NCBI GenBank assembly: GCA_913055625.1
Contig: CAJXJW010000002.1
Coordinates: forward strand, 62,001 to 126,000
Source of the DNA: an uncultured Pseudomonadota bacterium
GTDB lineage: Bacteria > Pseudomonadota > Gammaproteobacteria > Steroidobacterales > Woeseiaceae
Reading direction: 5' to 3'
DNA length: 64,000 bases
The notes under the pieces are model-generated. The model was not told the origin of the DNA. It did no database searches and saw only the letters and a list, made by a program, of their open reading frames with translations. The translations under genes and the position numbers were made by a program. Each line of letters starts with the position of its first letter. Positions within the stretch are counted from its first letter, which is position 1. Shown piece after piece: positions 2,890 to 47,100 of this stretch.

Positions 2890-2928
2890 GGGGAAAGGGT
2901 AGCCTGAGCGGTGCTCGAATGGAACGGT

Positions 2929-3375
2929 CTAGTTCAGCAACTGCATGAGCTGGACGACGTTTCCGTCCGGGTCGCGCAACTGCAACAGGCGCAGCCCGTT
3001 GTTGGCGTCCTCCACGATGCCCGGCGCGTCCGCCACCGCCGGCAGCGCGGCCACGACGGCATCGAGGTCCGCGACCAGCGCGCCGAGCTTGAACGGGCCC
3101 CGGACCCTGCCGTCCGGCGGGGCGGCGGCATCGGCCAGTTCCAGCAGCTCGACGAACAGGCCGGGCCGGACCAGGTTGACGATCTCGTAGCGGCCCGCAT
3201 CGGCGAGCCGCGTGCTTACCGTCACGCCGAGGTGGGCTTCGTACCATGCAACCGACGCATCGATGTCGCTGACGATCACGGCGAAATAGCTGCCGTTGTA
3301 AGCGGCTTCGGCACGAGCAGCGTCGCCGAGCGCCATCGCGGCCGCGAGCAGGATGATGGGGGCCAATCGTCTCAT
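2929..3375 (-). CDS. Secreted VOC (glyoxalase/bleomycin-resistance fold) protein
   Basis: 148 residues with an N-terminal signal peptide (MRRLAPIILLAAAMALGDAARAEA) followed by a single vicinal-oxygen-chelate domain. Visible motifs are VSDIDASVAWYEAHLG near residue 35 and LRDPDGNVVQLMQ at the C-terminus. The DPDGN..QL motif is the standard final strand of VOC proteins. A periplasmic VOC protein is less usual than a cytoplasmic one. It lies 39 bases upstream of the Anbu start in the same orientation, so the two may be cotranscribed. No specific reaction can be assigned. Confidence 0.8.
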   Translation of the reverse strand: MRRLAPIILLAAAMALGDAARAEAAYNGSYFAVIVSDIDASVAWYEAHLGVTVSTRLADAGRYEIVNLVRPGLFVELLELADAAAPPDGRVRGPFKLGALVADLDAVVAALPAVADAPGIVEDANNGLRLLQLRDPDGNVVQLMQLLN

Positions 3376-3431
3376 CGGATCCTCCCGGGTTTCCGAGTGC
3401 GGTACCAGGAGTCACATCGTACAATCCCGCG

Positions 3432-4433
3432 ATGCGTCATCTCTACCTGAGAGCGGCCCCGCCCACCCCGGGACACCTGCTCGTCGCCGTCGCGGCGCTG
3501 ATCGTCGCCGCATGCGCGCCGGACCGGGAAATGACGCCGGTACGCGAGATTGCCATCACGATCGACGACACAACGCTGCCCGACGGGCCATTGTTCGACG
3601 GAGAGAAGCGCACCCGCATGCTGATCGATGCGCTGGCCAACGCCGGCGTGGACGAAGCGATGTTCTTCGTCACGACCGGCAACGTCGAGCAGGCGGGACC
3701 GGCGGGCGATGCCCGTATCCGGGCCTACGCGGAAGCCGGGCACGCGCTGGCCAATCATTCGCATTCGCACCTGTGGTTGCACGAGCAGGACGCCGACGAC
3801 TACATCGCCGATCTCGACCGCGCGATCGCCCGGCTTGCCAGGTTCGACAACGTGCAGCCCTACTTCCGGTTCCCGTACCTCGACGAAGGCCGCGAGGTTG
3901 CGAAGCGCGATCGCCTGCGTGCGGCGCTGGCCGAACGCGGCCTGCGAAACGGCTACGTTACCGTCGGCACCTGGGACTGGTTCCTGGTGAGCCTCGTCAG
4001 TGAAGCGCAGTCGCAGGGCATCGACGTCAGCATGGACGCGCTTCGCGACCTGTACGTGGACATCTTCGTGACGAGTGCCGAGTACTACGATGAACTGGCG
4101 CGGCAGGCACTGGGCCGGTCGCCCCGGCACGTGCTGCTGCTGCACGAGAACGACCTGGCGGCGTTATTCATCGACGATGCCGTTGCCGCCCTGCGGCGTG
4201 CCGGCTTTCGCGTGATCCGGGCGACGGATGCCTTCGACGATCCTATTGCCGCGGACGAACCGGACACGCTGTACCTCGGGCAGGGGCGGGTCGCGGCGCT
4301 GGCGCACGTCGCCGGCGTGGCGGACGAAGATCTGCGTTCGCCGACCGAGAACGCCGACTACCTGCGTGCGCGATTCGACGCCGAGGTCGCGCGGTTGCCC
4401 GACCCGGGGCATGTGGCGCATTTGCACGAATAG
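3432..4433 (+). CDS. Polysaccharide deacetylase family lipoprotein
   Basis: 333 residues with a lipoprotein signal (hydrophobic stretch then LIVAAC), so it is probably lipid-anchored in the envelope. NodB-homology motifs of carbohydrate esterase family 4 are present: ITIDDTTLPDG near residue 39 (the metal-binding DD motif), NHSHSHLWL near residue 114 (HSxxH) and RFPYLDEG near residue 151. The C-terminal third continues with LLLHENDLAALF, as in CE4 members acting on peptidoglycan or exopolysaccharide. It could act on the polymer made by the nearby GT2 operon, but that is inference. Its stop codon lies inside the operator of the next gene. Confidence 0.85.
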   Translation: MRHLYLRAAPPTPGHLLVAVAALIVAACAPDREMTPVREIAITIDDTTLPDGPLFDGEKRTRMLIDALANAGVDEAMFFVTTGNVEQAGPAGDARIRAYAEAGHALANHSHSHLWLHEQDADDYIADLDRAIARLARFDNVQPYFRFPYLDEGREVAKRDRLRAALAERGLRNGYVTVGTWDWFLVSLVSEAQSQGIDVSMDALRDLYVDIFVTSAEYYDELARQALGRSPRHVLLLHENDLAALFIDDAVAALRRAGFRVIRATDAFDDPIAADEPDTLYLGQGRVAALAHVAGVADEDLRSPTENADYLRARFDAEVARLPDPGHVAHLHE

Positions 4434-4448
4434 ATCGATATTCGTGCA
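4423..4448. promoter_or_regulatory. Inverted repeat operator of the Xre/RES pair
   Basis: A perfect 10-base inverted repeat, TGCACGAATA (4423-4432) and TATTCGTGCA (4439-4448), separated by 6 bases. It ends one base before the likely -35 of the toxin-antitoxin promoter and overlaps the deacetylase stop. Xre-type antitoxins of this family autoregulate by binding such repeats, so this is a strong operator candidate. Confidence 0.75.
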
Positions 4449-4477
4449 TTTACACCACGCTGTCCGCGCCGTATCAT
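4449..4477 (+). promoter_or_regulatory. Sigma70-type promoter, probably giving a leaderless mRNA
   Basis: TTTACA at 4449-4454 and TATCAT at 4472-4477 are separated by exactly 17 bases. Transcription would begin about 7 bases after the -10, at or next to the A of the ATG at 4484. The antitoxin message would then be leaderless; no ribosome binding site is visible upstream of that ATG. Confidence 0.65.
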
Positions 4478-4483
4478 GGGTCC

Positions 4484-4846
4484 ATGCGAGAGACCGGACG
4501 ACAAGCGCAACCTGACCCCGGTGCCGTGCTCGGCAAGGCGGTGCTGCGCGCCTCGGAGAGCATGGGCCTGTCCCGTGCGGCGCTGGGCCGCGTCCTCGGC
4601 CGCGACCGGTCGAGCATCTCGCGCGCCGGCGTGGACCCGGACAGCAAGGCGGGGGAGCTCGCCCGCCTGCTGCTGCGCTGCTACCGCTCGCTGGCCGTGC
4701 TCGTCGACGACAACGACGCGCAGATACGCGAGTGGCTCGCATCGCCGAACATGCACACGGGCGGCGTGCCTCTCGAGCAGCTACAGTCGGTGGCCGGCCT
4801 CGTGACCGTTTGCGAGTACCTGGACGCCATACGTGGCAAGGTTTGA
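4484..4846 (+). CDS. MbcA/ParS/Xre-type antitoxin
   Basis: 120 residues. The N-terminal half is a helix-turn-helix (LSRAALGRVLGRDRSSISR, residues 27-45). The C-terminal half has the MbcA/ParS/Xre antitoxin toxin-binding pattern with NDAQIREWLASPN and GGVPLEQLQSVAGLVTVCEYLDAIRGK. Proteins of this family neutralise RES-domain toxins and repress their own promoter. The toxin start lies inside the end of this gene (14-base overlap), which fits the usual antitoxin-first order. Confidence 0.9.
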   Translation: MRETGRQAQPDPGAVLGKAVLRASESMGLSRAALGRVLGRDRSSISRAGVDPDSKAGELARLLLRCYRSLAVLVDDNDAQIREWLASPNMHTGGVPLEQLQSVAGLVTVCEYLDAIRGKV

Positions 4847-5594
4847 CGAGGCGTTCTGGCCGGGCATCCTCGACCGCGTACGCGGGCAGGCGCTCATGGG
4901 CACGCTCGAGCGGCTGGTCGAGAGCCAGGAACAGAAAGTCACGCTGCGGCTGACCGACGACCTCGCCGAGCACGACGTGCTCGAAGCCCTGCTCGAGGAA
5001 TCCAAACCGCCGGCGGGGACGCACCCGCGGCTCGCGCAGTTCGATTACCTGTTGCGCACGTCGTGGCGTTACCCGCCGCTGCCGTGGGGATCGCGGTTCG
5101 GGAGGCGCTTCGAGCCGAGCCTGTTCTACGGCGCACTGTCGCACGATTCGCTGTTCGCCGAGGCCGCGTATTACCGCTTCGTCTTCCTCGCCGGCATGCA
5201 GTCGCCGTTCGCGGACCGGGTCATCAGCCAGTTCACCGTGTTCGAGGCCGCCTACCGGACCGATGCCGGGGTGGACCTGTCGCGCGCGCCGTTCCGGGAA
5301 TTTGAGAGCGTGCTGCGACATCCGGCCGACAACGCGCCGTGCCAGGCGCTCGGCACCGCGATTCGGCAGCGTGGGTGGCAGGCGATCGTCTACCTGTCTG
5401 CGCGAACGACAGCGCGCTGTTTCAACGTGGCGCTCGTCTCGCCCGACGCGCTCCGCTCACGAAAGCACCGCAATCCCCGGCCGGGCTTGTGCGAGGCGTC
5501 GCCGGAACAGGTCAGCTTTCGTCTTGGCGGGGAGCTTCACCGCTTTCCGCGGACGAACTTCCTGGTGCGGGGGGCTTTGCCGGTGCCGGCATGA
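4833..5594 (+). CDS. RES-domain toxin (NAD+-degrading family)
   Basis: 253 residues from a GTG start at 4833 that overlaps the antitoxin. RES family features include the segment YPPLPWGSRFGRRFEPSLFYGA with conserved Arg residues, SLFAEAAYYR with the conserved Glu (near residue 110), and a later Ser-containing strand (VYLSARTT). Characterised RES toxins deplete NAD+ by glycohydrolase or phosphorylase activity. About 80 N-terminal residues precede the RES core and resemble no domain I know. The 3' end overlaps the convergent GT2 gene by 83 bases, an unusually long overlap. Confidence 0.88.
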   Translation: MARFDEAFWPGILDRVRGQALMGTLERLVESQEQKVTLRLTDDLAEHDVLEALLEESKPPAGTHPRLAQFDYLLRTSWRYPPLPWGSRFGRRFEPSLFYGALSHDSLFAEAAYYRFVFLAGMQSPFADRVISQFTVFEAAYRTDAGVDLSRAPFREFESVLRHPADNAPCQALGTAIRQRGWQAIVYLSARTTARCFNVALVSPDALRSRKHRNPRPGLCEASPEQVSFRLGGELHRFPRTNFLVRGALPVPA

Positions 5595-7014
5595 TCACGC
5601 TCGTCGTCCCCCCGGCGAGGTTCTTGCTGCGCGTGATCGTCTGCCACGCGTGTTTCCTGCCCAGCAGCCACCGGAACAGCCCGCGCAGGCGCCAGAACGA
5701 CGTCAGCTGGCGGTAGCCGATGTTCTCGATGATGGCGACGCCGTACAGCGCCAGCAGCTGCCCGAAACGCGGGTACATGTGGAATGACATCTCCTCGAGC
5801 ATGATCGCGCTGGTCGACAGCAGCATGCCGAGGCCGACGGCCAGCGCGAAGAAGATCATGGCCTCCGGCCACGCGAGCCAGCCCATGAGCGCGCAGAGCA
5901 GGATGAAGACGTAGCCGGCCACTTCGAGGATCGGGCCGAACAGCTCGAAGATGACGTAGAACGGGATCGCGATCCACGTGACCGCGCCGCCGCGCGGGTT
6001 GGTCATCAGCGAGCGATTCAACGCGAAGGCCTGTCCGAGCCCGTGCTGCCAGCGTATGCGCTGGCCGCGCAGGTCACGCAGGTTTTCGGGCGCGTCGGTC
6101 CAGCACACCGGGTCCGGGACGAACGCGATGCGGTACGGTTTTCGCTTCTCCTTCATCTTGCGATGCAGGCGCAGGACGAGCTCCATGTCCTCGCCGACCG
6201 CCTCCGGGTTGTAGCCGCCGACCTCGATCAGCGTCTCCTTGTGAAACAGGCCGAACGCGCCGGAGATGATCAGGAGGCCGTTCATCGACGACCAGCTCAT
6301 GCGGCCGAACAGGAATGCGCGCAGGTATTCGACGACCTGCACCAGCGCCAGGAAGTTCGTCGGCAGCCCGACCTTCTCCAGGAAGCCGCGGCGCACCACG
6401 CAGCCGTTCGAGATGCGCACCGTGCCGCCGACGGCGACGGTGGTCGCGTCCTCGAGGAACGGACGCACGATGCGCCGCAGGCTGTCGGGCTGCATGATGG
6501 AGTCGGCGTCGACGACGCAGACCAGCGGGTAGCGGCAAGCGTTGATGCCGGCGTTCGATGCGTCCGCCTTGCTGCCGCCGTTGACCTTGTCCACGACCCG
6601 CAGGTTGGGCACCAGTGTCGAGCGGTAGACGCTCACCACGGGCTTGCAGGGAACCCGGGCGCGGTAGGCCTCCGGAAACGTCTGCAGGCCGAAGCCGTCG
6701 ATAAGGCGTTCGAGGGTATCGTCGGTCGAACCGTCGTTGACGACGACGAGTTCGAACTGCGGGTACTCGAGCTGCAGCATGGCCTTGACCGACGAGATGA
6801 TCGACACGGATTCGTTGTACGCCGGCACGACGATGCTGATTGGGATGTCCAGCGCGGAGAAGACGCTCTCTGCCTCGCTCTGGTCCGCCGTCTGCAGGTA
6901 CCGTCGTATGCCGTGCGCGGCGATGACGTTCTGCAGCAGGTAGCCGACGTTGATGCCGACGAAATAGGCGAGGAACACCCATTGCCCGGCCTGCACGAAG
7001 TCCTGCACGGTCAT
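5512..7014 (-). CDS. Processive family 2 glycosyltransferase (membrane)
   Basis: 500 residues. An N-terminal membrane segment (VFLAYFVGINVGYLLQNVI) is followed by a GT2 domain with VVVNDGSTDDT, VVDADS (DxD), GEDMEL and the QRIRWQHG processivity motif. Several C-terminal membrane segments follow. This architecture matches cellulose- or PNAG-synthase-type enzymes that polymerise and export a polysaccharide. I chose the ATG at 7014, which overlaps the stop of the HEAT gene (ATGA), over a longer in-frame extension whose sequence is an antisense-like Arg/Ala-rich shadow. It is the last gene of a four-gene operon. Confidence 0.88.
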   Translation of the reverse strand: MTVQDFVQAGQWVFLAYFVGINVGYLLQNVIAAHGIRRYLQTADQSEAESVFSALDIPISIVVPAYNESVSIISSVKAMLQLEYPQFELVVVNDGSTDDTLERLIDGFGLQTFPEAYRARVPCKPVVSVYRSTLVPNLRVVDKVNGGSKADASNAGINACRYPLVCVVDADSIMQPDSLRRIVRPFLEDATTVAVGGTVRISNGCVVRRGFLEKVGLPTNFLALVQVVEYLRAFLFGRMSWSSMNGLLIISGAFGLFHKETLIEVGGYNPEAVGEDMELVLRLHRKMKEKRKPYRIAFVPDPVCWTDAPENLRDLRGQRIRWQHGLGQAFALNRSLMTNPRGGAVTWIAIPFYVIFELFGPILEVAGYVFILLCALMGWLAWPEAMIFFALAVGLGMLLSTSAIMLEEMSFHMYPRFGQLLALYGVAIIENIGYRQLTSFWRLRGLFRWLLGRKHAWQTITRSKNLAGGTTSVIMPAPAKPPAPGSSSAESGEAPRQDES

Positions 7015-8084
7015 GCGATGCCTACCTCGGCATAGGCCTGGCCCAAGATGTCGGAGGCATACGGGTCCGCCTGCTCGGCGCGGATTTGGCGCAGCCGGTT
7101 CGGCCCGAGGAACGGCAGCGAGGCAATCGACTGCGCGGCGCGATAGCGCACCCACCACTCCGGATCGGAGACCAGCTCCAAGAGCAACGACAGGTGTTCC
7201 TGCTGCCCGACGCGGCCGAGAACCTTCGCCGCCTGCATGCGGACGAACCACACGTCGTGCCGGAGCAGGGCCGCGATGCGCGGCACGCCGCTGAAGCCGT
7301 TGACGAGCTTCAGCGCGGCGTTCAGCACGGCCGGATCATTGTTCTCCCGAAGCAGGTCGCTGACGAGCGCGTCCAGGACCTCCGGCTCGACGAGGCGCGT
7401 GAACTGCAGCAGGTAGGCCTTGTCCGCGTCGGTCGCGGAGCGAATCGCGCGGTACACCGGTTCGCTGATGCGCTCGCTGCCGGCGCGTCGCAGCAGGACG
7501 GACACCCGGTCGCGCGGCCAGTCGCGGCGCCGGGCCAGCATCGGCACGATCGTGCTGCCGGCGAGGGCCGGGTCGATCTCGATCAGCGCCTCGGCCGCCG
7601 TGATCGACAGGACCGTGTGCGGGTGATCGACCAGTTCCAGGAACTCGTCCCGGAAGCCTTCGTCGCGCAGGTGGCCCAGCGTGTGAACGGCGAGGATCCG
7701 CGACGACAAGCGACCGTGATGCAGCTTGCGAACGGCAATTTTGCGGATGGCGGTGCGCCGCGCGAGCACGATGAGGTTGTCGATCGCCTTCCCGTCGACG
7801 AGGCTGCGCACCCGGTTCCATTCTTCGAGCAGGTCCGTCTCGTCGTGCCGGTGCACGACGGGCAGCGGCAGGGCGGCGGCCGCGTCGTGGTTGATGACGG
7901 CCATGGCGAAGACTTCGCGCCAGCGCCGGATGAACGCACCGCGACGGCGATTGCGGATCAGGGTGGCGGTGCGCAGGCCGATCGCGTAGAAGAACAGCAC
8001 CACGGTCGTCACCAGCACGCCCGCGAGACACCACACCGCGATCAGCGTGAGCGTGTCAAAGTCGTAGCGATACAGCCAGTCCAA
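7011..8084 (-). CDS. Membrane-anchored HEAT-repeat protein
   Basis: 357 residues. One N-terminal transmembrane helix (LIAVWCLAGVLVTTVVLFFYAIGL) is followed by a basic patch (RNRRRGAFIRRW) and a helical-repeat domain. Its repeats have the HEAT pattern, for example SSRILAVHTLGHLRDEG, VWFVRMQAAKVLGRVG and EWWVRYRAAQSIASL. HEAT proteins act as scaffolds. Being sandwiched between a YaiO-like barrel and a processive GT2, with overlaps on both sides (29 and 4 bases), suggests it links synthesis to export or to the response regulator. That role is inferred. Confidence 0.82.
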   Translation of the reverse strand: MDWLYRYDFDTLTLIAVWCLAGVLVTTVVLFFYAIGLRTATLIRNRRRGAFIRRWREVFAMAVINHDAAAALPLPVVHRHDETDLLEEWNRVRSLVDGKAIDNLIVLARRTAIRKIAVRKLHHGRLSSRILAVHTLGHLRDEGFRDEFLELVDHPHTVLSITAAEALIEIDPALAGSTIVPMLARRRDWPRDRVSVLLRRAGSERISEPVYRAIRSATDADKAYLLQFTRLVEPEVLDALVSDLLRENNDPAVLNAALKLVNGFSGVPRIAALLRHDVWFVRMQAAKVLGRVGQQEHLSLLLELVSDPEWWVRYRAAQSIASLPFLGPNRLRQIRAEQADPYASDILGQAYAEVGIA

Positions 8085-36237: not shown

Positions 36238-36279
36238 CGGAACCGGTTGAACGGAAATCCGACCTGGTGAGTGCAGCTG

Positions 36280-37974
36280 ATGGCCAAGAATGTATGTGAA
36301 TCGTTGCTGGATACGTTGGCGCAGGTCGGGGTCCAGCAGATCTTCGGAATGACCGGCGACGCGTTGAACCCGTTCCTCGATGCAATTCGCCGCGACGGGC
36401 GATTCGAGTGGATCGGTGTTCGCCACGAGGAGACGGGGGCATTCGCCGCAGCCGCACAGGCAAAGATAAGCGGGCGCCTCGCGGTCTGCTGCGGAACCGT
36501 AGGGCCGGGTGCGATTCACTTGATCAACGGCTTGTACGATGCGAAGCGGGATCACGCGCCGGTACTGGCCATCACCGGCCACGTGCCGCTATCGGAGCAG
36601 GGTACCGACTACTTCCAGGAGGTCGACATCCTCAACCTGTTCCAGGATGTCGCTACCTACAACGAGTTCATAAACAGCCCCGCTCAGCTTCCACGAGTCG
36701 CGCAACAGGCGGTGCAGACGGCGCTGACCCGCGGCGGTGTTGCTCACCTCTCGATACCGACAGACGTGATCGCACAGACCGTGCCGGATAGTCCGCTTGC
36801 GCGCGAGGTATTCGTGCCGAAGGCGCACGTCATGCCCTGCCCCGACGAGTTGCAACGAGCGGTGGATCTGCTCAACCGGGGTGGGAAGATCACGATACTG
36901 GCTGGCGACGGCTGCCGCGAATCTCGCGAGGAGCTGCTGGCGTTGGCCGAAAGGCTGAACGCGCCGATCGTACGGACGCTCCGAGCCACCGACGTCGTCG
37001 AGTATGAGAATCCATACTGGATCGGTGGTACCGGCATGCTCGGCTCGCCCCAGGGGCTGGCTGCGCTGGACGACTGCGACACGCTGCTGATGCTGGGGAC
37101 CGACTTCCCGTACAGCGTGTTCCTGCCGAAGAACAAGGACATCATCCAGGTCGATATCAAGCCCGAGCGGCTTGGCAAGCGCTGTCGTGTGACCGTCGGT
37201 CTCATCGGACATGTCAAACCGACATTGCAGGCGCTACAGGCCAAGGTCGAGCCAAACGCCGAGACCGGATTTCTGCGCCGCCTGCAGCAACAGCGCGCGA
37301 ACTGGGATTCGCGCATGGACGCGAAGGCGAGTGTCTCGCGGGGGAATACGGGCCGTGTTCCTCCACAGGCGGTAACGCGCCTGGCTTGCGACCTGGCAGA
37401 CGACGACGCGATCTTCGTTGCCGATGTCGGCCTGATCACCGGTTGGGCGGCCAGGCATCTTCGCTTGCGCGGGAAGCAGCGCCTGCTGGGGTCATTCAAC
37501 CATGGCTCCCTGGGCGTCGCCGTACCGGCGGCAATCGGCGCGCAACTGCTGGATCGGCGCCGGCAAGTCGTGGCGCTGGCAGGCGATGGCGGCTTCAACA
37601 TGATGATGCAGGATCTGATAACCGCCGTTCGGTACGAACTGCCGATCGTGTTCATCGTACTGAACAACCGAAAACTCGGATTCGTCGAAGTGGAAATGCA
37701 AGCCTCAGGCTTCCCGCGCTTCGGAACGAAGCTGCAGAACCCGGATTATGCGAAGGTCGCGGTCGCCTGTGGCGCAATGGGCGAGACGGTTTCCGACCCG
37801 AACGAGCTCGAGGACGCGATTCGGGCGGCGTACCGGGCACGAGAGGCCTGTGTTCTCGACGTACAGGTCAACCCCGACGAGCTGTTGTTTCCGCCCAAGA
37901 TCGATGCGGCACATGCTTGGGGCTTCAGCCTGGCAAAACTGAAAGAAGTGTTTGTCGAAGAGGAGGCATTCTGA
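36280..37974 (+). CDS. ThDP-dependent pyruvate oxidase / PoxB-like enzyme
   Basis: 564 residues from ATG 36280 (GGTGAG about 8 bases upstream; a GTG at 36271 adds three residues). The family signature is clear: FGMTGDALNPFLDAI, RHEETGAFAAAAQAKISGRLAVCCGTVGPGAIHLINGLYDAK, GYF-like QGTDYFQEVDILNLF, and the ThDP motif GDGGFNMMMQDLITA...NNRKLGFV (near 430-460). The order is that of pyruvate:quinone oxidoreductase (PoxB), which oxidises pyruvate to acetate and CO2 and feeds electrons to quinone. The C-terminus lacks an obvious amphipathic membrane-binding helix like that of E. coli PoxB, so a related pyruvate oxidase is possible. TGATG overlap with malic enzyme. Confidence 0.85.
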   Translation: MAKNVCESLLDTLAQVGVQQIFGMTGDALNPFLDAIRRDGRFEWIGVRHEETGAFAAAAQAKISGRLAVCCGTVGPGAIHLINGLYDAKRDHAPVLAITGHVPLSEQGTDYFQEVDILNLFQDVATYNEFINSPAQLPRVAQQAVQTALTRGGVAHLSIPTDVIAQTVPDSPLAREVFVPKAHVMPCPDELQRAVDLLNRGGKITILAGDGCRESREELLALAERLNAPIVRTLRATDVVEYENPYWIGGTGMLGSPQGLAALDDCDTLLMLGTDFPYSVFLPKNKDIIQVDIKPERLGKRCRVTVGLIGHVKPTLQALQAKVEPNAETGFLRRLQQQRANWDSRMDAKASVSRGNTGRVPPQAVTRLACDLADDDAIFVADVGLITGWAARHLRLRGKQRLLGSFNHGSLGVAVPAAIGAQLLDRRRQVVALAGDGGFNMMMQDLITAVRYELPIVFIVLNNRKLGFVEVEMQASGFPRFGTKLQNPDYAKVAVACGAMGETVSDPNELEDAIRAAYRAREACVLDVQVNPDELLFPPKIDAAHAWGFSLAKLKEVFVEEEAF

Positions 37975-39608
37975 TGGCGCGGACGATGGGCCAGGATGCA
38001 GAGCGCGTGACGGGCTTTGACCGGCTCAACAGTGCCGCTCTCAACAAGGGAACGGCGTTCACCGCTGAAGAGCGCGATCGGTATCAGCTGCGCGGGTTGC
38101 TCCCGGCCGCCATATCCGACCCACACATACAGGAACAGCGTGCGCTGGCGAATCTGCGCCGAAAGGCATTTGATATCGAGCGATACGTGTATCTTCTCGC
38201 TCTGCAAGGCCGCAACGAGAAGTTGTTCCATCGACTTGTCGCGAACAACATCGACGAGATCATGCCGCTGATCTACACGCCGACGGTCGGTCAGGCCTGC
38301 CAGGAGTTCGCCCACATCTTTCGACAGCCGCGCGGGTTCTACATCACCCCGGACGACCGTGGACGCATTCGAGAGCACCTCGACCATTGGCCGGAGCGCG
38401 ACGTTCGCATGATTGTCGTGACCGATGGCGAGCGAATCCTGGGGCTGGGCGACCTGGGCGCGAACGGCATGGCGATCCCGATCGGGAAGCTGGCTTTGTA
38501 CTCGGCGTGCGCCGGGATTTCGCCCAGCCAATGCATGCCTGTCATGCTCGACGTCGGTACCAACAACGAGGAGCTGCGCAACGATCCGCTCTACCTCGGC
38601 ATCGATCGCCCGCGGCTGCGCGGACCCGAGTACGATTCGCTGGTCGACGAGTTTGTGAACGCGGTTCAGAGCGCTTTCCCGAACGCGCTGATCCAGTTCG
38701 AAGATTTCCTGACACCGAACGCCTACACGTTGCTTGGCCGGTACCGGGACAATGTGCTCTGCTTCAATGACGACATCCAGGGCACCGCTGCGGTCGCGCT
38801 CGCCGGCGTCCTGGCGTCGACACGAATCGTCGGCAAGCGCCTCGAGGATCTCCGGATCATGTTTCTCGGAGCCGGCTCCGCGGCCACCGGGATCGCCGAC
38901 CTTATCTGCTCGGCCATGCAGGAGGCCGGGCTTGATGAACGGTCAGCCCGGGAACGCCTGTGGTTCGTCGATCGAAGTGGCCTGGTCGTAGAGAATCGCG
39001 CCGGGCTTCGTCCCCATAACCTGCCTTATGCGCATCCCGTACCGAACGTCGAGTTTACCGAGGCGATCCGCCAGGTTCGTCCGAACGTGCTGATTGGCGC
39101 AACTGGCTCCGCAGGTGCATTCTCGGAGGACGTCGTGCGCCTGATGTCCGAGTTCAATGACCGTCCCGTGATCTTCGCACTGTCGAATCCAACATCGAAG
39201 GCAGAGTGCACGGCGGAACAGGCTTATGCCTGGAGTCAAGGACGAGCCGTCTTTGCGAGCGGCAGTCCGTTCGGTGAAGTCGAGTTGGATGGCCGGCGAT
39301 ACCGTCCGGGCCAGGGCAACAACGCCTACGTCTTCCCGGGGATCGGCCTCGGCGCGATCGCCTGCGGGGCCCGGGCCATCAGCGACGAGATGTTCCTCGA
39401 ATCCGCACGCGTCCTGGCGGGCATGGTCAGCCGGGACGACCTGGCCGAGGGGGCCGTCTATCCTCCGCTTCGGAACATCAGGGATGTGTCATTGGCGATT
39501 GCCGCCGCCGTCGCTCGAAAGGCCTGGGAGCAGGGTCTTGCCAGGGCCGGGGAACCCGAGAATATCGAGCGTGCGATACGGGCGCAGATGTACAGCCCTG
39601 ACTACTGA
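37974..39608 (+). CDS. maeA: NAD-dependent malic enzyme
   Basis: 544 residues. Family motifs: LIYTPTVGQACQEFAHIFRQPRGFY near residue 98, the substrate/metal segments QFEDFLTPNAY and FNDDIQGTAAVALAGVLA near 255-275, nucleotide-binding FLGAGSAATGIADL near 300, and FALSNPTSKAECTAEQAYAWS. This matches the MaeA/SfcA type that converts malate to pyruvate. Translation is coupled to the preceding PoxB-like gene (TGATG; GAGGAGG just upstream). The pair would convert malate to pyruvate and pyruvate to acetate. Confidence 0.92.
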   Translation: MARTMGQDAERVTGFDRLNSAALNKGTAFTAEERDRYQLRGLLPAAISDPHIQEQRALANLRRKAFDIERYVYLLALQGRNEKLFHRLVANNIDEIMPLIYTPTVGQACQEFAHIFRQPRGFYITPDDRGRIREHLDHWPERDVRMIVVTDGERILGLGDLGANGMAIPIGKLALYSACAGISPSQCMPVMLDVGTNNEELRNDPLYLGIDRPRLRGPEYDSLVDEFVNAVQSAFPNALIQFEDFLTPNAYTLLGRYRDNVLCFNDDIQGTAAVALAGVLASTRIVGKRLEDLRIMFLGAGSAATGIADLICSAMQEAGLDERSARERLWFVDRSGLVVENRAGLRPHNLPYAHPVPNVEFTEAIRQVRPNVLIGATGSAGAFSEDVVRLMSEFNDRPVIFALSNPTSKAECTAEQAYAWSQGRAVFASGSPFGEVELDGRRYRPGQGNNAYVFPGIGLGAIACGARAISDEMFLESARVLAGMVSRDDLAEGAVYPPLRNIRDVSLAIAAAVARKAWEQGLARAGEPENIERAIRAQMYSPDY

Positions 39609-40175: not shown

Positions 40176-41438
40176 TCAACTCCGGCGCCGGGTCCGGGAG
40201 AAACCCAGGTGTGCGATGTCTGCCGGGAAGAGCATTCCCCAATTCCATTCGAGAAACAGGCGGAGTTTTCGCGCCAGCGTGGGCACTCGAAGCAGGTAGA
40301 CTCCGCGCCAAAGCAGCCACGCAACAAACCCTGACAGACGGATGCCGAAGACCTCCGCGACCGCCTTGTTGTGGCCGATCGTCGCGAGCGCCCCCAGCGG
40401 CCTGAAGCGAAAGGGCTGCGTCTCCTCTCCCCGGATCGCCGCGCACAAATTGTGCGCAAGCTGCTTCGCTTCGCGCGTCGCAAACTGCGCGGTCGGCGGT
40501 GCCGGTAGACCGCTCCAGTCATTCTCGATATGAGCGCAATCGCCCAGCGCCCAAAGGCCCGGAACACCGGGCACGGACATGTCCGGGTTTGTCGCAACAC
40601 GGCCGCGAATCTTGTCGACGGGCAAAGACTCGATCAGGGGATTCGGAGCAGTACCTATCGTACAGATGACCGTGCCGGCGGCGATTCGTTGGCCGCTGTT
40701 CAGCTCGATGCTGCGTGCGTCAATACGTTCCGCCCGCGCGTTGAGGCGAATATCGAGGCCGCTACGCGTCATCTTCCGCAACGCGAAATCCCCGAGCCCC
40801 TCGGGCAATTCAGGCAACAGGCGGTCGCCCGAATGCACCAGGCAAACCTTGCAGTCCTCGGGGTCGAGGGTCGGGTAGTACCTGAGGCTCGAGCGCAGGA
40901 AGTCCGAGATCTCACCGGCAACCTCGACACCGCTGAAACCGCCACCCAGCACGGCGAACGTCGTCAGCCACCGGCGTAGCCGGACATTCGGCTGCAGCGT
41001 TGCCTGCTCCAGCCGCGAAAGAATCCGGTTGCGGAGAAAGAGCGCGTCGCCGACCGTCTTCAGTGGCAGAGCATACCTGGCCATCCCGGGCACCAGGGCG
41101 AGATTGGCGCCTACACCACACGCGAGTACCAGTTCGTCGTACTCGATGGTCCCTGGCCCTTCGCCCAGGTAGTGAATCTTGCGTGCCTGCAAGTCGATGT
41201 CACTGACACGCACCATGCACAGCGTTGCCCGCCCGGCGATCTGGCGCAGCGGCGCCACCACGTGACCCGGAAGAATAGACGCACCCACGACTTCCGCGAG
41301 CAGCGGGCTATACGTGATGTGGTTCTCCTTACTCACGATCGTGACGGTGCAGCCTGCCGGAATGCTCTTCTGCAGATTTGCTGCAAGCGTGGCTCCGGCG
41401 AAGCCGCCGCCGAGTATGACTATTCGCTTTCCCGTCAC
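40176..41438 (-). CDS. NAD(P)/FAD-dependent oxidoreductase, NDH-2-like
   Basis: 420 residues from GTG 41438 (GAGGAACC upstream); a TTG at 41474 would add 12 residues. N-terminal FAD motif KRIVILGGGFAGATLA, central NAD motif FAVLGGGFSGVEVAGEI near residue 162, and C-terminal FAD motif GLWALGDCAHI near 295. These belong to type II NADH dehydrogenases, which pass electrons from NADH to quinone without pumping protons. The C-terminus has hydrophobic/basic stretches (FVAWLLWRGVYLLRVPTLARKLRLFL) compatible with membrane association. Encoded convergently with the preceding operon and divergently from hvfA. Confidence 0.85.
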   Translation of the reverse strand: MTGKRIVILGGGFAGATLAANLQKSIPAGCTVTIVSKENHITYSPLLAEVVGASILPGHVVAPLRQIAGRATLCMVRVSDIDLQARKIHYLGEGPGTIEYDELVLACGVGANLALVPGMARYALPLKTVGDALFLRNRILSRLEQATLQPNVRLRRWLTTFAVLGGGFSGVEVAGEISDFLRSSLRYYPTLDPEDCKVCLVHSGDRLLPELPEGLGDFALRKMTRSGLDIRLNARAERIDARSIELNSGQRIAAGTVICTIGTAPNPLIESLPVDKIRGRVATNPDMSVPGVPGLWALGDCAHIENDWSGLPAPPTAQFATREAKQLAHNLCAAIRGEETQPFRFRPLGALATIGHNKAVAEVFGIRLSGFVAWLLWRGVYLLRVPTLARKLRLFLEWNWGMLFPADIAHLGFSRTRRRS

Positions 41439-41522
41439 CGCTGGTTCCTCGTGGGGAATCTCCAATACGGGCAACTTATGTCTGCGTCATCGGGAGTTGA
41501 ATACACGGAAACCGAAGAGGGA

Positions 41523-41640: not shown

Positions 41641-42009
41641 ATGAAGGTCCAAGACAAGACAGCAATTGCGCTGGGCATTTGTGCGGCATTGGCGGCATCG
41701 GCCGGAAGCGCTGCATCGAGAGCAGCTCCCGACTCATCGCCGTTCGCGTTTCAGGAGTTGTCCGCCGGCTACATGGTCAGTGGCGACCACTCCGGCAATG
41801 AGGGCGAGGGCGCTTGCGGCGAAGGGTCGTGCGGCGGCGATGACGCCAAGGGCGAGTCGGAAGGTGCCTGTGGCGAGGGGTCCTGTGGAGCGGCCGACGA
41901 CAAGGGCGAGTCAGAGGGTACCTGCGGTGAAGGGTCCTGCGGGGCCGCCGAAGACAAGGCCGAGGCGGAAGGTGCCTGCGGCGAAGGGTCCTGCGGGGGC
42001 CAGTTCTAA
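41641..42009 (+). CDS. HvfA-like Cys-repeat precursor peptide (copper-binding RiPP type)
   Basis: 122 residues with an N-terminal signal-like leader (KTAIALGICAALAASAGSAAS) and the segment FAFQELSAGYMVSGD. Four copies of EGACGEGSCG (third copy EGTCGEGSCG) follow at 18-residue spacing from residue 56 (DNA period 54 bases from 41806). Eight Cys in C-x4-C pairs result. This is the pattern of HvfA-family copper-binding precursors, where MNIO enzymes convert EGxCG cysteines to oxazolone-thioamides. AGGAG precedes the ATG. It heads an operon with acetolactate synthase, aldehyde dehydrogenase, an FMN glutamate-synthase-like enzyme and an HvfX-like DoxX protein, but no MNIO or partner gene lies in the window. 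Confidence 0.8.
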   Translation: MKVQDKTAIALGICAALAASAGSAASRAAPDSSPFAFQELSAGYMVSGDHSGNEGEGACGEGSCGGDDAKGESEGACGEGSCGAADDKGESEGTCGEGSCGAAEDKAEAEGACGEGSCGGQF

Positions 42010-42037
42010 GCGGCCCGCCAACGAAGGAGACGTAACA

Positions 42038-43672
42038 ATGAATGCCGCACAAAAGTTCGTCGAGTGCCTGGAGAACGAGGGCGTCACCGAGATCTTCGGT
42101 ATTCCCGGGGAGGAGAATCTTGCGGTCATGGATGCGCTGCTGTCCAGCAACATCCGCTTCATTCTCACCCGTCACGAACAGGGTGCAGCGTTCATGGCCG
42201 ACGTGTACGGACGCCTGACCGGCAGGGCAGGCGTCTGTCTCGGTACGCTCGGACCCGGTGCTACGAATCTCATTACCGGATTCGCCGACGCAAACATGGA
42301 TCGCGCGCCGATTGTCGGCATTGCCGGGCAAGGATCCAGCGAGCGCTTGCACAAGGAAAGCCACCAGATCATCGACCTGGTCAGCATGTTCGAGCCCATC
42401 TCCAAGTACTGTGCACAAGTCCGAAGCCCCGGCATCGTGAACGAAGTGGTGCGCAAGGCATTCAAGGACGCTCAATCGGAGAAGCCGGGTGGAGCATTCA
42501 TCGAGTTGCCTGAGGACATCGCGGACATGGAGGCGCCGGATATCCCTCCATTGAGAAGGCAGAGCGCAAGGGTCCCCGAGGCACCGCGGGACAAGATCCG
42601 GCAGGCCGCCGAGCTGATATCGAGCGCGAAGTATCCGCTGGTAATGGCCGGTAACGGCGTCGTTCGCGCTGGCGCCTCCGAGGCACTGGTCGCATTCGCG
42701 GAGCAGTTGCGAATCCCCGTCGCGACGACGTTCATGGCGAAGGGTGCCATTCCGTCGTCACACGATTGTAGCCTCGGAACGGTTGGGCTGCAGGCCAATG
42801 ACTATGTCGCCTGCGGGTTTGATCGCGCGGACCTGGTGATCTGCGTCGGCTACGACATGGTCGAGTATCACCCGAATCTGTGGAACCCGGATCGTGATCA
42901 GCGAATCGTCCATATCGATGCGACACCCGCTGAGGTCGATGCGCACTACATCCTGGAAGCCGGTGTTGTCGGCGATATCGCGCGGTCCCTGAACGGCATC
43001 GCCGGCCTGGCGTCTCCCCAGGCTTCTTTCCAGGCAGGCGGGCTCCGCTCGCACATCATGGAAGAGTTTGCGGCGTACAAGGACGACACGGCAATGCCCA
43101 TGAAACCGCAAAAGATCATCTGGGACCTTCGGCAGGCGCTGCAGCCGGATGACATCGTGGTGTCGGACGTCGGCGCCCACAAGATGTGGATGGCGCGCAT
43201 GTACCAGGCCGAGAAGCCAAATACCTGCATCATCTCGAACGGGTTTGCGTCAATGGGAATCGGTGTTCCCGGCGCGATTGCCGCGAAGATCGCGCACCCG
43301 GACAGGACTGCGCTGACCGTAACGGGAGATGCGGGGTTCCTGATGAACAGCCAGGAGCTGGAGACGGCCCTGCGCATTGGCACGCCGATCGTCGTCCTGG
43401 TCTGGAACGACAGCGAGTATGGGCTGATCAAGTGGCACCAACTCCGGCGCTACGGAAGAGAGAGCAACATCCGGTTCACGAACCCGGACCTGGTCCGACA
43501 CGCCGAGAGCTACGGCGCAAAAGGCTATCGCGTCGAGTCCGCCGCCGACCTTCTGCCGACGATCAAGCAGGCAATCGAAGACGATACTGTCGTTGTCATC
43601 GACTGCCCTGTCGACTATCGCGAGAACATGAAGCTCACCGAACAACTCGGCAATCTCGTCTGCCCTATCTGA
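42038..43672 (+). CDS. Acetolactate synthase large-subunit-like ThDP enzyme
   Basis: 544 residues, AAGGAGA upstream. ThDP-enzyme motifs: IFGIPGEENLAVMDAL, RHEQGAAFMADVYGRLTGRAGVCLGTLGPGATNLITG (near 45-82), and the ThDP-binding GDAGFLMNSQELETALRI...WNDSEYGLIKW (near 425-465). It resembles catabolic acetolactate synthases (AlsS), which condense two pyruvates to acetolactate; no small regulatory subunit gene is adjacent. Gene order with aldehyde dehydrogenase and FMN-GltS-like genes is close (28, 10 and 17-base gaps). Substrate specificity is not proven by motif. Confidence 0.85.
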   Translation: MNAAQKFVECLENEGVTEIFGIPGEENLAVMDALLSSNIRFILTRHEQGAAFMADVYGRLTGRAGVCLGTLGPGATNLITGFADANMDRAPIVGIAGQGSSERLHKESHQIIDLVSMFEPISKYCAQVRSPGIVNEVVRKAFKDAQSEKPGGAFIELPEDIADMEAPDIPPLRRQSARVPEAPRDKIRQAAELISSAKYPLVMAGNGVVRAGASEALVAFAEQLRIPVATTFMAKGAIPSSHDCSLGTVGLQANDYVACGFDRADLVICVGYDMVEYHPNLWNPDRDQRIVHIDATPAEVDAHYILEAGVVGDIARSLNGIAGLASPQASFQAGGLRSHIMEEFAAYKDDTAMPMKPQKIIWDLRQALQPDDIVVSDVGAHKMWMARMYQAEKPNTCIISNGFASMGIGVPGAIAAKIAHPDRTALTVTGDAGFLMNSQELETALRIGTPIVVLVWNDSEYGLIKWHQLRRYGRESNIRFTNPDLVRHAESYGAKGYRVESAADLLPTIKQAIEDDTVVVIDCPVDYRENMKLTEQLGNLVCPI

Positions 43673-43682
43673 CGAGCCTCGC

Positions 43683-45122
43683 ATGACTCCCAATCTGCCA
43701 ACGATGGTAAAGGACGCTCGGAGCGTCGACGACGTCGTCGAAGTACGTGCACCGTACGATGGCAAGCTCCTGGCGACCCTGGATGCTGCCGACGGCGAGA
43801 CGATCGAGCGTGCCTTGAGAACGGCACACGCGCTGTTCCACGACCGCAGCAACTGGCTGCCGAAACGCCGTCGCATCGAGATCCTCGATCGAGCGGTCGA
43901 GATCATGCGGCACCAGGCACCGATGCTCGAAAGGCTGGCGGCCGAGGAGGGCGGGAAACCGCTGCTCGACTCCCGGATAGAGGTGGGCCGCGCGATCGAC
44001 GGCGTACGCAGCGCCGCGGAAGCATTGCGGGGCCAGGCTGGCCACGAGGTGCCGATGGGTCTGGATGCTGCCACTGAGGGCAGGGTCGCGTTCACCACGC
44101 ATGAGCCGATAGGGCCGATTGTCGCCATCAGCGCTTTCAACCACCCGCTGAATCTCATCGTGCACCAGGTTGCGCCTGCGATCGCCGCCGGCAACCCCGT
44201 CATCGTGAAGCCGGCAGAGGACACGCCTCTGTCATGCTACCGGTTCGTGGAGATTCTGCGCGAGGCCGGCCTTCCGGAAGCCTGGTGCCAGGCGCTGGTA
44301 GTGAAGGACATCGGCCTGGCAACGCGACTCGTGACTGACGAGCGGGTGGCGTTCTTCAGCTTCATCGGCAGCAGCGACGTCGGATGGATGCTGCGGTCGA
44401 AGCTGGCACCGGGTACGCGATGCGCACTCGAGCACGGCGGCGCCGCGCCGGTCATCGTAGCCGCCGACGCCGATCTCGACCTGGCAATACCACTGTTGAC
44501 GAAAGGCGGCTTCTACCACGCCGGGCAGGTTTGCGTATCCGTGCAGAGGGTGTTCTGTCACGCGAGCATTGCTGAGCAGATGGCCGCGCGACTCGCTGAG
44601 GCGGCAGGGAATCTCCATGTCGGTGACCCGTTGCTGGAGACCACTGACGTTGGTCCGTTGATTCGGAGCAGCGAGGTAAATCGCGTACATGAGTGGGTGC
44701 TCGAGGCGCGCCGGTCTGGCGGAACAGTACTCACCGGCGGCAGGACGCTGACGGATAGCTGCTACTCCCCGACGGTCCTGCTCAATCCGCCGGATCACGT
44801 TGCAGTTTCTCAGCGGGAAGTTTTCGGCCCGGTCGTCTGTGTTTACGCCTACGACGAGCTCGATGAGGCGCTCGCGCGCGCCAATGCCCTGCCGATGGCC
44901 TTTCAGGCCGCGGTCTTCACGCGCGATCTGGATACCGCTCTCGATGTCTCGCGCCGAATCAATGCCTCCGCAGTCATGGTAAATGATCACACCGCGTTTC
45001 GGGCCGACTGGATGCCGTTTGCCGGCCTTGGACGATCCGGCCTCGGAACCGGTGGCATCCCCCATACGTTCGATGACATGCAGATCGAAAAGATGACAGT
45101 GCTGCGGTCGCAGGCACTGTAG
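43683..45122 (+). CDS. Aldehyde dehydrogenase family protein
   Basis: 479 residues. Catalytic Cys in GQVCVSVQRV (near 284) and general-base Glu in LEHGGAAPVIV (near 250) are present. Cofactor segments ISAFNHPLNLIVHQVAPAIAAGNPVIVKPAEDTPLS and FIGSSDVG also match. The family oxidises aldehydes to acids with NAD(P)+. Placement between acetolactate synthase and the FMN glutamate-synthase-like gene suggests a role in the same pathway, perhaps with an aldehyde derived from pyruvate or acetoin; that is inference. Confidence 0.9.
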   Translation: MTPNLPTMVKDARSVDDVVEVRAPYDGKLLATLDAADGETIERALRTAHALFHDRSNWLPKRRRIEILDRAVEIMRHQAPMLERLAAEEGGKPLLDSRIEVGRAIDGVRSAAEALRGQAGHEVPMGLDAATEGRVAFTTHEPIGPIVAISAFNHPLNLIVHQVAPAIAAGNPVIVKPAEDTPLSCYRFVEILREAGLPEAWCQALVVKDIGLATRLVTDERVAFFSFIGSSDVGWMLRSKLAPGTRCALEHGGAAPVIVAADADLDLAIPLLTKGGFYHAGQVCVSVQRVFCHASIAEQMAARLAEAAGNLHVGDPLLETTDVGPLIRSSEVNRVHEWVLEARRSGGTVLTGGRTLTDSCYSPTVLLNPPDHVAVSQREVFGPVVCVYAYDELDEALARANALPMAFQAAVFTRDLDTALDVSRRINASAVMVNDHTAFRADWMPFAGLGRSGLGTGGIPHTFDDMQIEKMTVLRSQAL

Positions 45123-45139
45123 ATGAGGAGTAAACGACC

Positions 45140-46645
45140 ATGAACCCCGACTTCGTCGTCAGCGTACTGGAGGTAATGACGTACACATTCGTGTTCGTCA
45201 TCGGCCTGGTAGCAATGGCCGTGGTGCTGATGTTCATCCTCGATATTTCCCAGACCAAGCAGGCCATCCGCCGAAACTACCCGGTCATTGGTCGCTTTCG
45301 CTACTTGTTCGAAGAGATGGGCAAGTTCTTCCGTCAGTACTTCTTCGCAATGGACCGCGAGGAGTTGCCGTTCAACCGTGCCGAGCGAACCTGGGTTTAC
45401 AAGGCGGCCAAGAACGTCAGTACCGTAACCCCCTTCGGCTCGACGCGTGACCTTCGTTCGACGGGCACGGTCCTCTTCGTGAACTGTCCGTACCCGACGC
45501 TTGACGTTGATGCGGCGACAGCGTCCGAGGTCACGATAGGCCCGTATGCCAGCACGCCCTATACCACCGCTTCGCTGTTCAACATCTCGGGGATGAGCTA
45601 CGGGGCGATCTCCAAACCAGCGGCGCTGGCGCTCTCGAACGGCGCGAGAATGGCCGGGTGCTGGATGAACACCGGCGAAGGTGGCCTCTCGCCTTATCAC
45701 CTCGAGGGCGGGGCCGATATCGTATTCCAGATAGGAACGGCGAAGTACGGTGTCCGCAACGAAGCCGGGCAACTTGACGATGATCGTCTGCGCGAAGTGG
45801 CTGCCCACGAGAAGGTCCGGATGTTCGAGATCAAGTTGAGCCAGGGCGCGAAGCCCGGCAAGGGCGGGATCCTGCCGGGCGACAAGGTTACAGCCGAGAT
45901 AGCGGCGATACGTGGAATTCCGGAAGGCAAGGACTCGATCAGCCCGAACCGCCACCCGGAAATCGAATCGGAGTCCGACCTGCTGGACCTGATCGAGCGA
46001 GTCCGTTCGGTGACGGGGAAGCCGGTTGGCTTCAAGGCCGTCATCGGCGCATCGGACTGGATCGACCGCCTCTTCCAGGCGATCAACGAACGAGGCATTG
46101 AGAGCGCCCCGGACTTCATCACGATAGACAGTGCGGACGGCGGGACCGGAGCGGCGCCGACGAGCCTCATCGACTACATGGGCCTTCCCGTTCGCGAGAG
46201 CCTGCCGATGGTCGTGAACAAGCTTGTCGAGTACGACCTGAAGAACCGCGTCAAGGTGGTCGTCTCCGGAAAGTTGGTCACCCCGGCGGAAGTGGCCTGG
46301 GCATTGTGCGCGGGAGCAGATTTCATCTGCTCGGCCCGCGGCTTCATGTTTGCGTTGGGGTGCATCCAGGCGCTGCAGTGCGACAAGAACACCTGCCCGA
46401 CGGGGATCACGACCCACAAAAAGCGCTTACAGAAGGGATTGGACGCGACAGACAAGGCGGAGCGTGTCCGGCACTACGTAGAAAACATGGTGTACGAAGT
46501 GGGCGTCATCGCGCACTCGTGCGGCGTACGGGAAGCGCGGGACCTGAAGCGGCACCACGCAAGAATCGTAACTGAAAACGGTAGCTCGGTACCTCTCAGC
46601 GATGTATACGGCGAGACCGCGACAACCTGGAGACAGCATTCATGA
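45140..46645 (+). CDS. Membrane-anchored FMN-binding glutamate-synthase family protein
   Basis: 501 residues. An N-terminal membrane helix (MTYTFVFVIGLVAMAVVLMFIL) is followed by the GltB-type FMN/Fe-S domain: ISGMSYGAISKPAALALSNGAR, GEGGLSPYH, DFITIDSADGGTGAAPTSL and a Cys cluster LGCIQALQCDKNTCPTG (C-x5-C-x4-C, the 3Fe-4S pattern). It lacks the glutamine-amidotransferase domain of true glutamate synthase, so it is a stand-alone relative of unknown reaction. Its stop overlaps the following HvfX-like start (4 bases). Confidence 0.85.
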   Translation: MNPDFVVSVLEVMTYTFVFVIGLVAMAVVLMFILDISQTKQAIRRNYPVIGRFRYLFEEMGKFFRQYFFAMDREELPFNRAERTWVYKAAKNVSTVTPFGSTRDLRSTGTVLFVNCPYPTLDVDAATASEVTIGPYASTPYTTASLFNISGMSYGAISKPAALALSNGARMAGCWMNTGEGGLSPYHLEGGADIVFQIGTAKYGVRNEAGQLDDDRLREVAAHEKVRMFEIKLSQGAKPGKGGILPGDKVTAEIAAIRGIPEGKDSISPNRHPEIESESDLLDLIERVRSVTGKPVGFKAVIGASDWIDRLFQAINERGIESAPDFITIDSADGGTGAAPTSLIDYMGLPVRESLPMVVNKLVEYDLKNRVKVVVSGKLVTPAEVAWALCAGADFICSARGFMFALGCIQALQCDKNTCPTGITTHKKRLQKGLDATDKAERVRHYVENMVYEVGVIAHSCGVREARDLKRHHARIVTENGSSVPLSDVYGETATTWRQHS

Positions 46646-47100
46646 AACCTCTCATCGAACTTTCGCAAAAGGCGTTCACCTTGTTGAACGGTATTGGAGA
46701 CTATGTCTCGATGCTCGCATTACGATTGCTGCTCGCCTGGGAGTTCTGGGCGGCGGGCGTCAAGAAGTTCAACGGCCAGAACTGGTTCGAACGGATACAG
46801 GACGACTTTCCGTTCCCCTTCAGCGTCATACCGACCGACATAAGCTGGGCCATCGCGACATGGTCCGAGCTGATCGGTGCTGCGGCACTGTTCGTTGGCC
46901 TCGGCACGCGATACGCTGCGGCAACGCTGATCATCCTGGACATCGTGGCCCTCGTCAGTGTTCACGCCGACAACGGCTACAATGTTTGCAGCAACGGGTT
47001 CAAGCTTCCGCTCATCTATTTCCTGATGCTACTGCCGTTGCTCCTGAACGGACCCGGCAAGGCGAGCCTGGATGCGCTCGTCGCCAGGTACTTCAAGTAG
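46642..47100 (+). CDS. DoxX family protein, HvfX-like
   Basis: 152 residues, about four membrane helices: MLALRLLLAWEFWAAGVKKF, AIATWSELIGAAALFVGLG, TLIILDIVALVSVHA and LPLIYFLMLLPLLLNGPG. The residues around WEFWAAGVKKFNGQNWFERIQDDFPFPFSVIP match the HvfX branch of DoxX, which typically sits in hvfABC(X) clusters, supporting the HvfA call four genes upstream. Location: inner membrane. A short loop before the last helix reads NVCSNGF. Last gene of the operon, followed by a strong terminator. Confidence 0.8.
   Translation: MKPLIELSQKAFTLLNGIGDYVSMLALRLLLAWEFWAAGVKKFNGQNWFERIQDDFPFPFSVIPTDISWAIATWSELIGAAALFVGLGTRYAAATLIILDIVALVSVHADNGYNVCSNGFKLPLIYFLMLLPLLLNGPGKASLDALVARYFK

Follow-up and report, generated by a model that had tools for sequence, protein, structure and literature searches.

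The window analysed here, a 64,000-nucleotide stretch from the genome of an uncultured Woeseiaceae bacterium (G000:C2:62001-126000), raises the question of how a copper-peptide precursor is matured, and what three metabolic enzymes do beside it, when its operon holds neither an MNIO enzyme nor the partner protein of such an enzyme. As read from the open reading frames (ORFs), five genes follow one another on the plus strand at 41641-47100: hvfA1, for a precursor with EGxCG repeats, genes for an acetolactate synthase (ALS), an aldehyde dehydrogenase (ALDH) and a glutamate synthase-like protein (GltS-like 1), and hvfX1, for a DoxX-family membrane protein. All five lie where a preliminary description of this DNA had placed them, and on the same strand. 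In the Haemophilus oxazolin cluster hvfABCX, HvfA is the precursor, HvfB the MNIO, HvfC its partner and HvfX a DoxX protein, and the product carries 5-thiooxazoles and binds copper. We consider it reasonably probable that the window locus is one half of a split and expanded thiooxazole copper-peptide system (an EGxCG ribosomally synthesized and post-translationally modified peptide, or RiPP, of the oxazolin/captophorin kind), with the GltS-like protein, ALS and ALDH as assistants.

We searched the host genome (99.45% complete, 0.2% contamination, 20 contigs) for the maturation genes. A single MNIO was found genome-wide with PF05114, at C1:506233-507018, and it scored 416.6 bits against the HvfB model NF003818 (cut-off 360). 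Model NF050145 likewise gave a single HvfC, beside this MNIO, with 287.7 bits (cut-off 142). The preliminary description had called the operon devoid of MNIO and partner, which holds at the window locus and fails for the genome as a whole; one of the two options that it had left, that the modifying enzymes are encoded elsewhere, was borne out by this pair of putative modifying enzymes. The C1 locus (L002) has the order hvfB-hvfC-hvfX-gltS on one strand, its GltS-like protein is 66% identical to the window copy, and a motif screen found no EGxCG precursor there. The second hvfA gene of the host, hvfA2, encodes EGSCG repeats and is located at C9:78633-78857, directly behind a gene for an extracytoplasmic function (ECF) sigma factor and a DUF3379 gene (L040:7176-8870) whose product was taken for an anti-sigma factor. 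hvfA1 resembles this ECF sigma/DUF3379-linked hvfA in its EG[SA]CG precursor and in its leader motif, and differs from it by the lack of sigma and anti-sigma genes of its own. The genome thus encodes two precursors and a single HvfBC pair. On C1 (L002:6198-7583), hvfBC is preceded by DUF1841, nth and rnf-like genes; the place between nth/DUF1841 and the MNIO or GltS gene is taken by hvfA in other families, so the precursor may have been lost from this spot, or moved, in the genus of the host.

Comparison with 119 relatives showed that HvfA repeats were present in 85 genomes and an MNIO in 101, and that 82 of the 85 hvfA-bearing genomes had both. When the hvfA places among the matches listed were considered, hvfA and MNIO were on separate contigs in 61 of the 63 relatives that had both and a listed hvfA place, the exceptions being G086 and G112. 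Fragmented assemblies weaken single cases of this separation; the surroundings of hvfA and MNIO nonetheless differ. An ECF sigma factor and an anti-sigma factor of the C9 type were found within a small flank of 23 of 29 hvfA loci (L100-L128), while the motif screen detected no hvfA in the 29 MNIO-HvfC-HvfX-GltS loci of the relatives. Action in trans is therefore the norm among the relatives, and HvfA1 is likely matured in trans by the HvfBC pair of C1. The part of PMC12452194 available to us already states that precursors without a linked MNIO may be substrates of one at another locus; the split arrangement is thus foreseen in the literature and is not new.

The products of hvfA1 and hvfX1 were then compared with the family models. 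HvfA1 has a Sec-type N-terminus and eight EGxCG units arranged as four EG[AT]CGEGSCG pairs. It scored 43.6 bits against the KCGExKCG repeat model NF050137 (cut-off 19.5) and 32.1 bits, below the cut-off of 95, against the HvfA equivalog NF050188, while HvfX1 scored 135.4 bits against NF050144 (cut-off 80). Judged by these scores, HvfA1 is a member of the family other than the Haemophilus-type equivalog. The residue before the Cys is Ala in three units, Ser in four and Thr in one, and never the Lys of EGKCG. The leader motif of HvfA1, SPFAFQELSAGYM, is common to precursors with an MNIO at the same locus: a simple pattern recovered it in 15 of 24 distinct MNIO-linked HvfA sequences and in 31 of the 35 others, truncated sequences being counted as misses. 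The host system is therefore like Haemophilus hvfABCX in having an EGxCG precursor with a signal peptide and HvfX, HvfB and HvfC proteins above the family cut-offs. It is unlike it in that no MNIO and DUF2063 partner adjoin the precursor in the window operon, precursor and maturase being on different contigs, in that the precursor shares its operon with ALS, ALDH and GltS-like genes, and in that Ala, Ser or Thr replaces Lys.

Comparison of the core repeats showed EG[AST]CG in HvfA1, EG[AS]CG in the sister locus L139 and EGKCG in L140, which has the same five genes as the window in identical order. The HvfA repeats of the genus are mostly EGSCG, with Ser in place of Lys (e.g. L115-L124, L127, L128), and the core of HvfA1 is closer to these than to the EGKCG of L140, its nearest operon relative. 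Its core type may thus be an adaptation to the resident enzyme. Outside the genus, MNIO-linked HvfA with Ser, Gln or Asn before the Cys was also seen (L295:5098, of family f22, and L239).

The neighbourhoods of GltS-like genes were surveyed in an even draw of 274 genomes of the class, in which matches at 1e-150 were found in 96 genomes at 106 places, 100 of which were read (two of the host's own and G064, G131, G178 and G240 were left out). The results showed an MNIO within 6.5 kb of the GltS-like gene at 20 places, which span 13 families, hvfA at 19 and ALS at 10; by hand arithmetic, the chance expectation for an MNIO at this distance is below 1%. The commonest families within five genes were DoxX (20), HvfC (20) and MNIO (19), followed by a Na+/H+ exchanger (18), HvfA (18), ALDH (14), ClpB (14) and ALS (10). 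The exchanger (PF00999) comes after GltS or DoxX in its 18 loci, with hvf genes or without (e.g. L181:11749-12978). From the side of the precursor, a GltS-like gene was located within 9 kb of at least 18 of 60 strong hvfA genes of the draw, a lower bound since 64 of the 106 GltS places were compared. Among the relatives, 59 of the 63 GltS-like places outside the host were fetched (G049, G105, G109 and G115 were left out); 29 were the MNIO-HvfC-HvfX-GltS loci mentioned above (26 in the genus and 3 in family f16), 5 had ALS and ALDH, 25 had neither, and none had the gene combination of the window.

In the survey of ALS loci, made by contig scan on the best 80 of 413 confirmed relatives and with neighbours taken within 7 kb, hvfA was found near ALS in 10 loci, MNIO in 8 and a GltS-like gene in 34, 7 of the latter being merely 32-42% identical. 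hvfA, MNIO, hvfC, ALS and GltS occurred together in seven of the 80 loci. Three of these (L181, L183, L184) have the order hvfA-MNIO-hvfC-ALS-ALDH-gltS, followed by a DoxX gene in L181 and L183, and four (L179, L182, L186, L197) have the order hvfA-ALS-gltS-hvfX-MNIO-hvfC, with ALDH several kb downstream in L186 and L197. Besides L140, hvfA is followed by ALS, gltS and DoxX in L172 and, in L139, which ends at a contig edge, by ALS and ALDH, behind the same NDH-2 and PoxB neighbours as in the window. The two surveys are not independent, since L181, L183 and L184 are L233, L237 and L227 of the class survey. The idea that ALS, ALDH and GltS replace MNIO and HvfC is contradicted by the seven loci that hold both; because the GltS-like gene, and less often ALS and ALDH, recur in such clusters, these enzymes appear to assist the system, and they may give redox or metabolic support. 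The preliminary description had named a lack of conservation of the linkage as a refutation, and this fails with the 10 ALS loci with hvfA and the 20 GltS places with MNIO. Its suggestion that the peptide has an unknown function in which the enzymes take part is supported by the same counts as an association.

Other ALS loci have ALS, ALDH and GltS genes without hvf genes, and a crude screen found no other Cys-rich precursor beside the DoxX-ALS-ALDH-GltS loci without EGxCG (L159, L165, L176, L193). In L167, a group on the minus strand at 2915-7106, with a divergent MNIO (40%), a DUF2063 partner, a histidine kinase and a 187-residue protein without Pfam match, stands back to back with DoxX-ALS-ALDH-GltS; it may represent a different type of copper peptide that makes use of this helper module as well.

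The three enzymes were assigned by profile. ALS scored 781.7 bits against NF006187 (cut-off 509) and is of the PRK08322 type by sequence, the nearest solved structures being catabolic acetolactate synthases. ALDH scored 412.2 bits against PF00171 and could be aligned with solved ALDHs along its length, and no NCBIfam equivalog cut-off was reached among the 25 best matches listed. GltS-like 1 scored 300.5 bits against PF01645 and only 138.8 bits against NF008730, the full GOGAT large subunit (cut-off 1047); it has the FMN/[3Fe-4S] synthase-domain fold, a CX5CX4C motif and one N-terminal membrane helix. In contrast to GltB, it lacks the amidotransferase domain and a second subunit, and the GltB loop KPG-E-GG-Q-LPG is changed to KPG[K/R/H]GG[I/V]LPG in nearly all of 190 GltS-like ORFs, the E being kept in one. 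Fusions of GltS to another domain were also considered and dropped, as the four long ORFs inspected were out-of-frame extensions.

The genes of the operon are closely packed (Table 1), with intergenic gaps of 28, 10 and 17 bp and a 4-bp overlap (ATGA) of the gltS stop and the hvfX1 start. Terminator-like sites between 41300 and 47300 were not in excess (4 observed against 3.6 expected from shuffles), and the sole plus-strand site lies within gltS. The candidate promoter element recurs 5' of hvfA in L139; in the host genome it has a single perfect match, and 5 other matches carry 2-3 mismatches. An ECF-type promoter common to the three loci of the host was rejected, as motif comparison gave nothing convincing. 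Upstream of the operon are a PoxB-like pyruvate oxidase/dehydrogenase gene (36271-37974, plus strand), a malic-enzyme-like ORF (37386-39608; so called after its own sequence and the corresponding gene of L139) and an adjoining NDH-2-type flavoprotein gene (40176-41474, minus strand) divergent from hvfA1. PoxB, malic enzyme, Sdh-type and NDH-2 genes occupy the same place in L139.

Table 1. Features of the hvfA1 operon and its upstream region (positions in the window)
Feature	Position	Strand	Description
candidate promoter element GTTGAATACACGGAAACC	41496..41513	+	between divergent NDH-2 gene and hvfA1
hvfA1	41641..42009	+	EGxCG copper-peptide precursor, 122 aa; NF050137 above cut-off
ALS	42038..43672	+	thiamine-diphosphate enzyme, PRK08322-type acetolactate synthase, 544 aa; NF006187
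ALDH	43683..45122	+	NAD(P)-type aldehyde dehydrogenase, 479 aa; PF00171
gltS-like 1	45140..46645	+	glutamate synthase-type FMN/[3Fe-4S] synthase domain, 501 aa; PF01645
hvfX1	46642..47100	+	DoxX-family membrane protein, 152 aa; NF050144, PF07681

The history of the linkage was examined on GltS trees. In two quick trees, the window copy was placed apart from the clade of its genus, to which the C1 copy belongs. A larger tree was made by adding rows from the class survey, dropping distant and long-branch rows and thinning the genus to six rows plus C1 and the genus rows labelled none or ALS. In this tree, the window GltS belonged to a supported group of seven rows, composed of itself, L140, two rows that have ALDH and three that lack all of the genes. 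A GltS clade entirely linked to ALS (25 supported rows in the first tree) was dropped, since three of these seven rows are without the genes and since the 25 rows had come through the ALS search, which makes that clade a sampling effect. The hvf label changed 13 times on the larger tree and the hvf+ALS label 7 times, the starred branches forcing at least 4 and at least 3 changes, respectively; such frequent changes indicate that the linkage was gained and/or lost repeatedly. The distances of ALS, ALDH and GltS correlated across loci (rho 0.56-0.66, 7 loci left out), which species relatedness alone could also give.

In the mechanism that we propose, HvfC would read the SPFxxxxLxxGYM leader of HvfA1 and HvfBC would form 5-thiooxazoles, while still in the cytoplasm, from the cysteines of the EGxCG units; the modified peptide would be exported by Sec, copper would be bound in the envelope and HvfX would be a membrane accessory of the peptide. 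The weakest step is that of the membrane-anchored FMN/[3Fe-4S] GltS-like enzyme, which would be a redox partner, together with HvfX, and would either hold the diiron maturase in a reduced state, along with the thiols of the precursor, or handle copper/thiol redox in the envelope. ALS and ALDH would feed the GltS-like enzyme or, when copper or oxidants cause stress, open a side-route for pyruvate. HvfBC requires a reductant in vitro, for its iron cofactor and for the Cys thiols, according to the portion of PMC13419390 at hand, and with this need a flavin/Fe-S protein encoded in the same operon becomes a natural candidate donor. A more specific form of the proposal, in which the GltS-like protein and HvfX would form a redox unit in the membrane that is dedicated to EGxCG copper peptides, supplying electrons to the MNIO diiron centre and the precursor cysteines or managing copper/thiooxazole redox in the envelope, and fed with pyruvate via ALS and ALDH in some lineages, is tentative and, on the whole, rather unlikely.

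Several observations weigh against a role of the three enzymes as assistants. The hvfABC and fonABC genes of other species modify peptides in E. coli without GltS, ALS or ALDH, as described in the accessible part of PMC13097082. No hvfA, MNIO, HvfC, DoxX, ALS or ALDH gene was near the GltS-like gene at 65 of the 100 class places, many of which end at contig edges, and for 42 of the 60 strong hvfA genes none of the 64 GltS-like places compared was within 9 kb, so that the system can in general do without GltS. Of the 80 ALS loci, 70 lacked hvfA, 20 had ALDH only and 25 had nothing of the set, which implies that the enzymes work without the peptide too. Finally, the window GltS and the GltS beside the host MNIO belong to separate lineages.

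Part of this evidence would suit a bypass of stress metabolism, which is possible if doubtful, and in which peptide and enzymes would share regulation alone: copper and oxidants would cripple iron-sulphur and thiol enzymes, and ALS, ALDH and the GltS-like enzyme would maintain the flow of pyruvate, NADH and amino acids, together with the neighbouring PoxB, malic enzyme and NDH-2, while the peptide binds copper outside the cytoplasm. The presence of these three genes (malic enzyme by sequence) directly upstream of the operon and of the same set in L139, the existence of ALS-ALDH-GltS sets without hvf genes, and the induction of the Haemophilus hvf operon by hypochlorite through RpoE2, reported in the section of PMC7907618 at our disposal, are all consistent with it. 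However, PoxB and NDH-2 genes of the window type flanked the operon in L139 only, among the 80 ALS loci, and the GltS-like protein, with its [3Fe-4S] motif and without a glutaminase domain, would be a poor copper-proof glutamate synthase. Neutral or selfish clustering of two independent modules joined by horizontal transfer, with no joint function, would account for the many changes of hvf/ALS linkage on the tree and for the position of the window GltS, which groups with rows of other families and not with its genus. Recurrence in 13 families, in several gene orders, on the same strand and with tight packing makes this explanation improbable, and the correlated distances also speak against it, with the reservation given above.

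A further modification of the peptide by the three enzymes, such as acylation or reduction beside the thiooxazoles, is suggested by the operon that they share with the precursor in the window, L140 and L172 and, in seven loci, with all of the maturation genes. We regard it as very improbable, since ALS and ALDH resemble ordinary small-molecule enzymes near known families, Pfam gave no peptide-binding domain in any of the three, and the hvf-less ALS-ALDH-GltS loci have no gene for an EGxCG-type peptide. The least probable explanation is that HvfA1 is a decayed or unmodified paralogue for which an MNIO is no longer needed: the absence of an MNIO in cis and the replacement of Lys before the Cys would agree with it, whereas the leader motif is intact, the frame is open, L139 keeps the gene, and HvfAs of the genus with an MNIO in the same genome use EGSCG as well.

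As far as our searches go, the peptide system is known and its association with GltS, ALS and ALDH is unreported. Fontiphorin and the other captophorins (PMC13097082) and the Buf_EGKCG/oxazolin group (PMC12452194) share the repeat motif, the MNIO with its DUF2063 partner and DoxX with the host system, and the rare extras named in the available parts of both papers are oxidored_molybd and ferric reductase, not GltS, ALS or ALDH. The main text of PMC12452194, in the portion available, contains no glutamate synthase, acetolactate, aldehyde dehydrogenase, exchanger or PF01645, and those of PMC13097082 and PMC12538549, to the same extent, no glutamate synthase, acetolactate or aldehyde dehydrogenase. 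Literature searches gave nothing joining MNIO, glutamate synthase and RiPP, nor HvfA and acetolactate synthase; DUF692 and glutamate synthase were joined in one listing, which describes the genome of an alphaproteobacterium (PMC10608839).

Mining by clusters overlooks precursors whose maturase is encoded elsewhere, a separation that is the usual state in this order (61 of the 63 genomes that could be checked). The copper peptides made by MNIO enzymes are a new and widespread group of RiPPs, for which the GltS-like protein is a concrete candidate for the electron supply in vivo or for an accessory gene. If the tentative redox unit of the GltS-like protein and HvfX exists, the GltS-like protein would be the physiological electron donor that MNIO maturation has so far lacked, and a stand-alone membrane protein of this type would have its first role.

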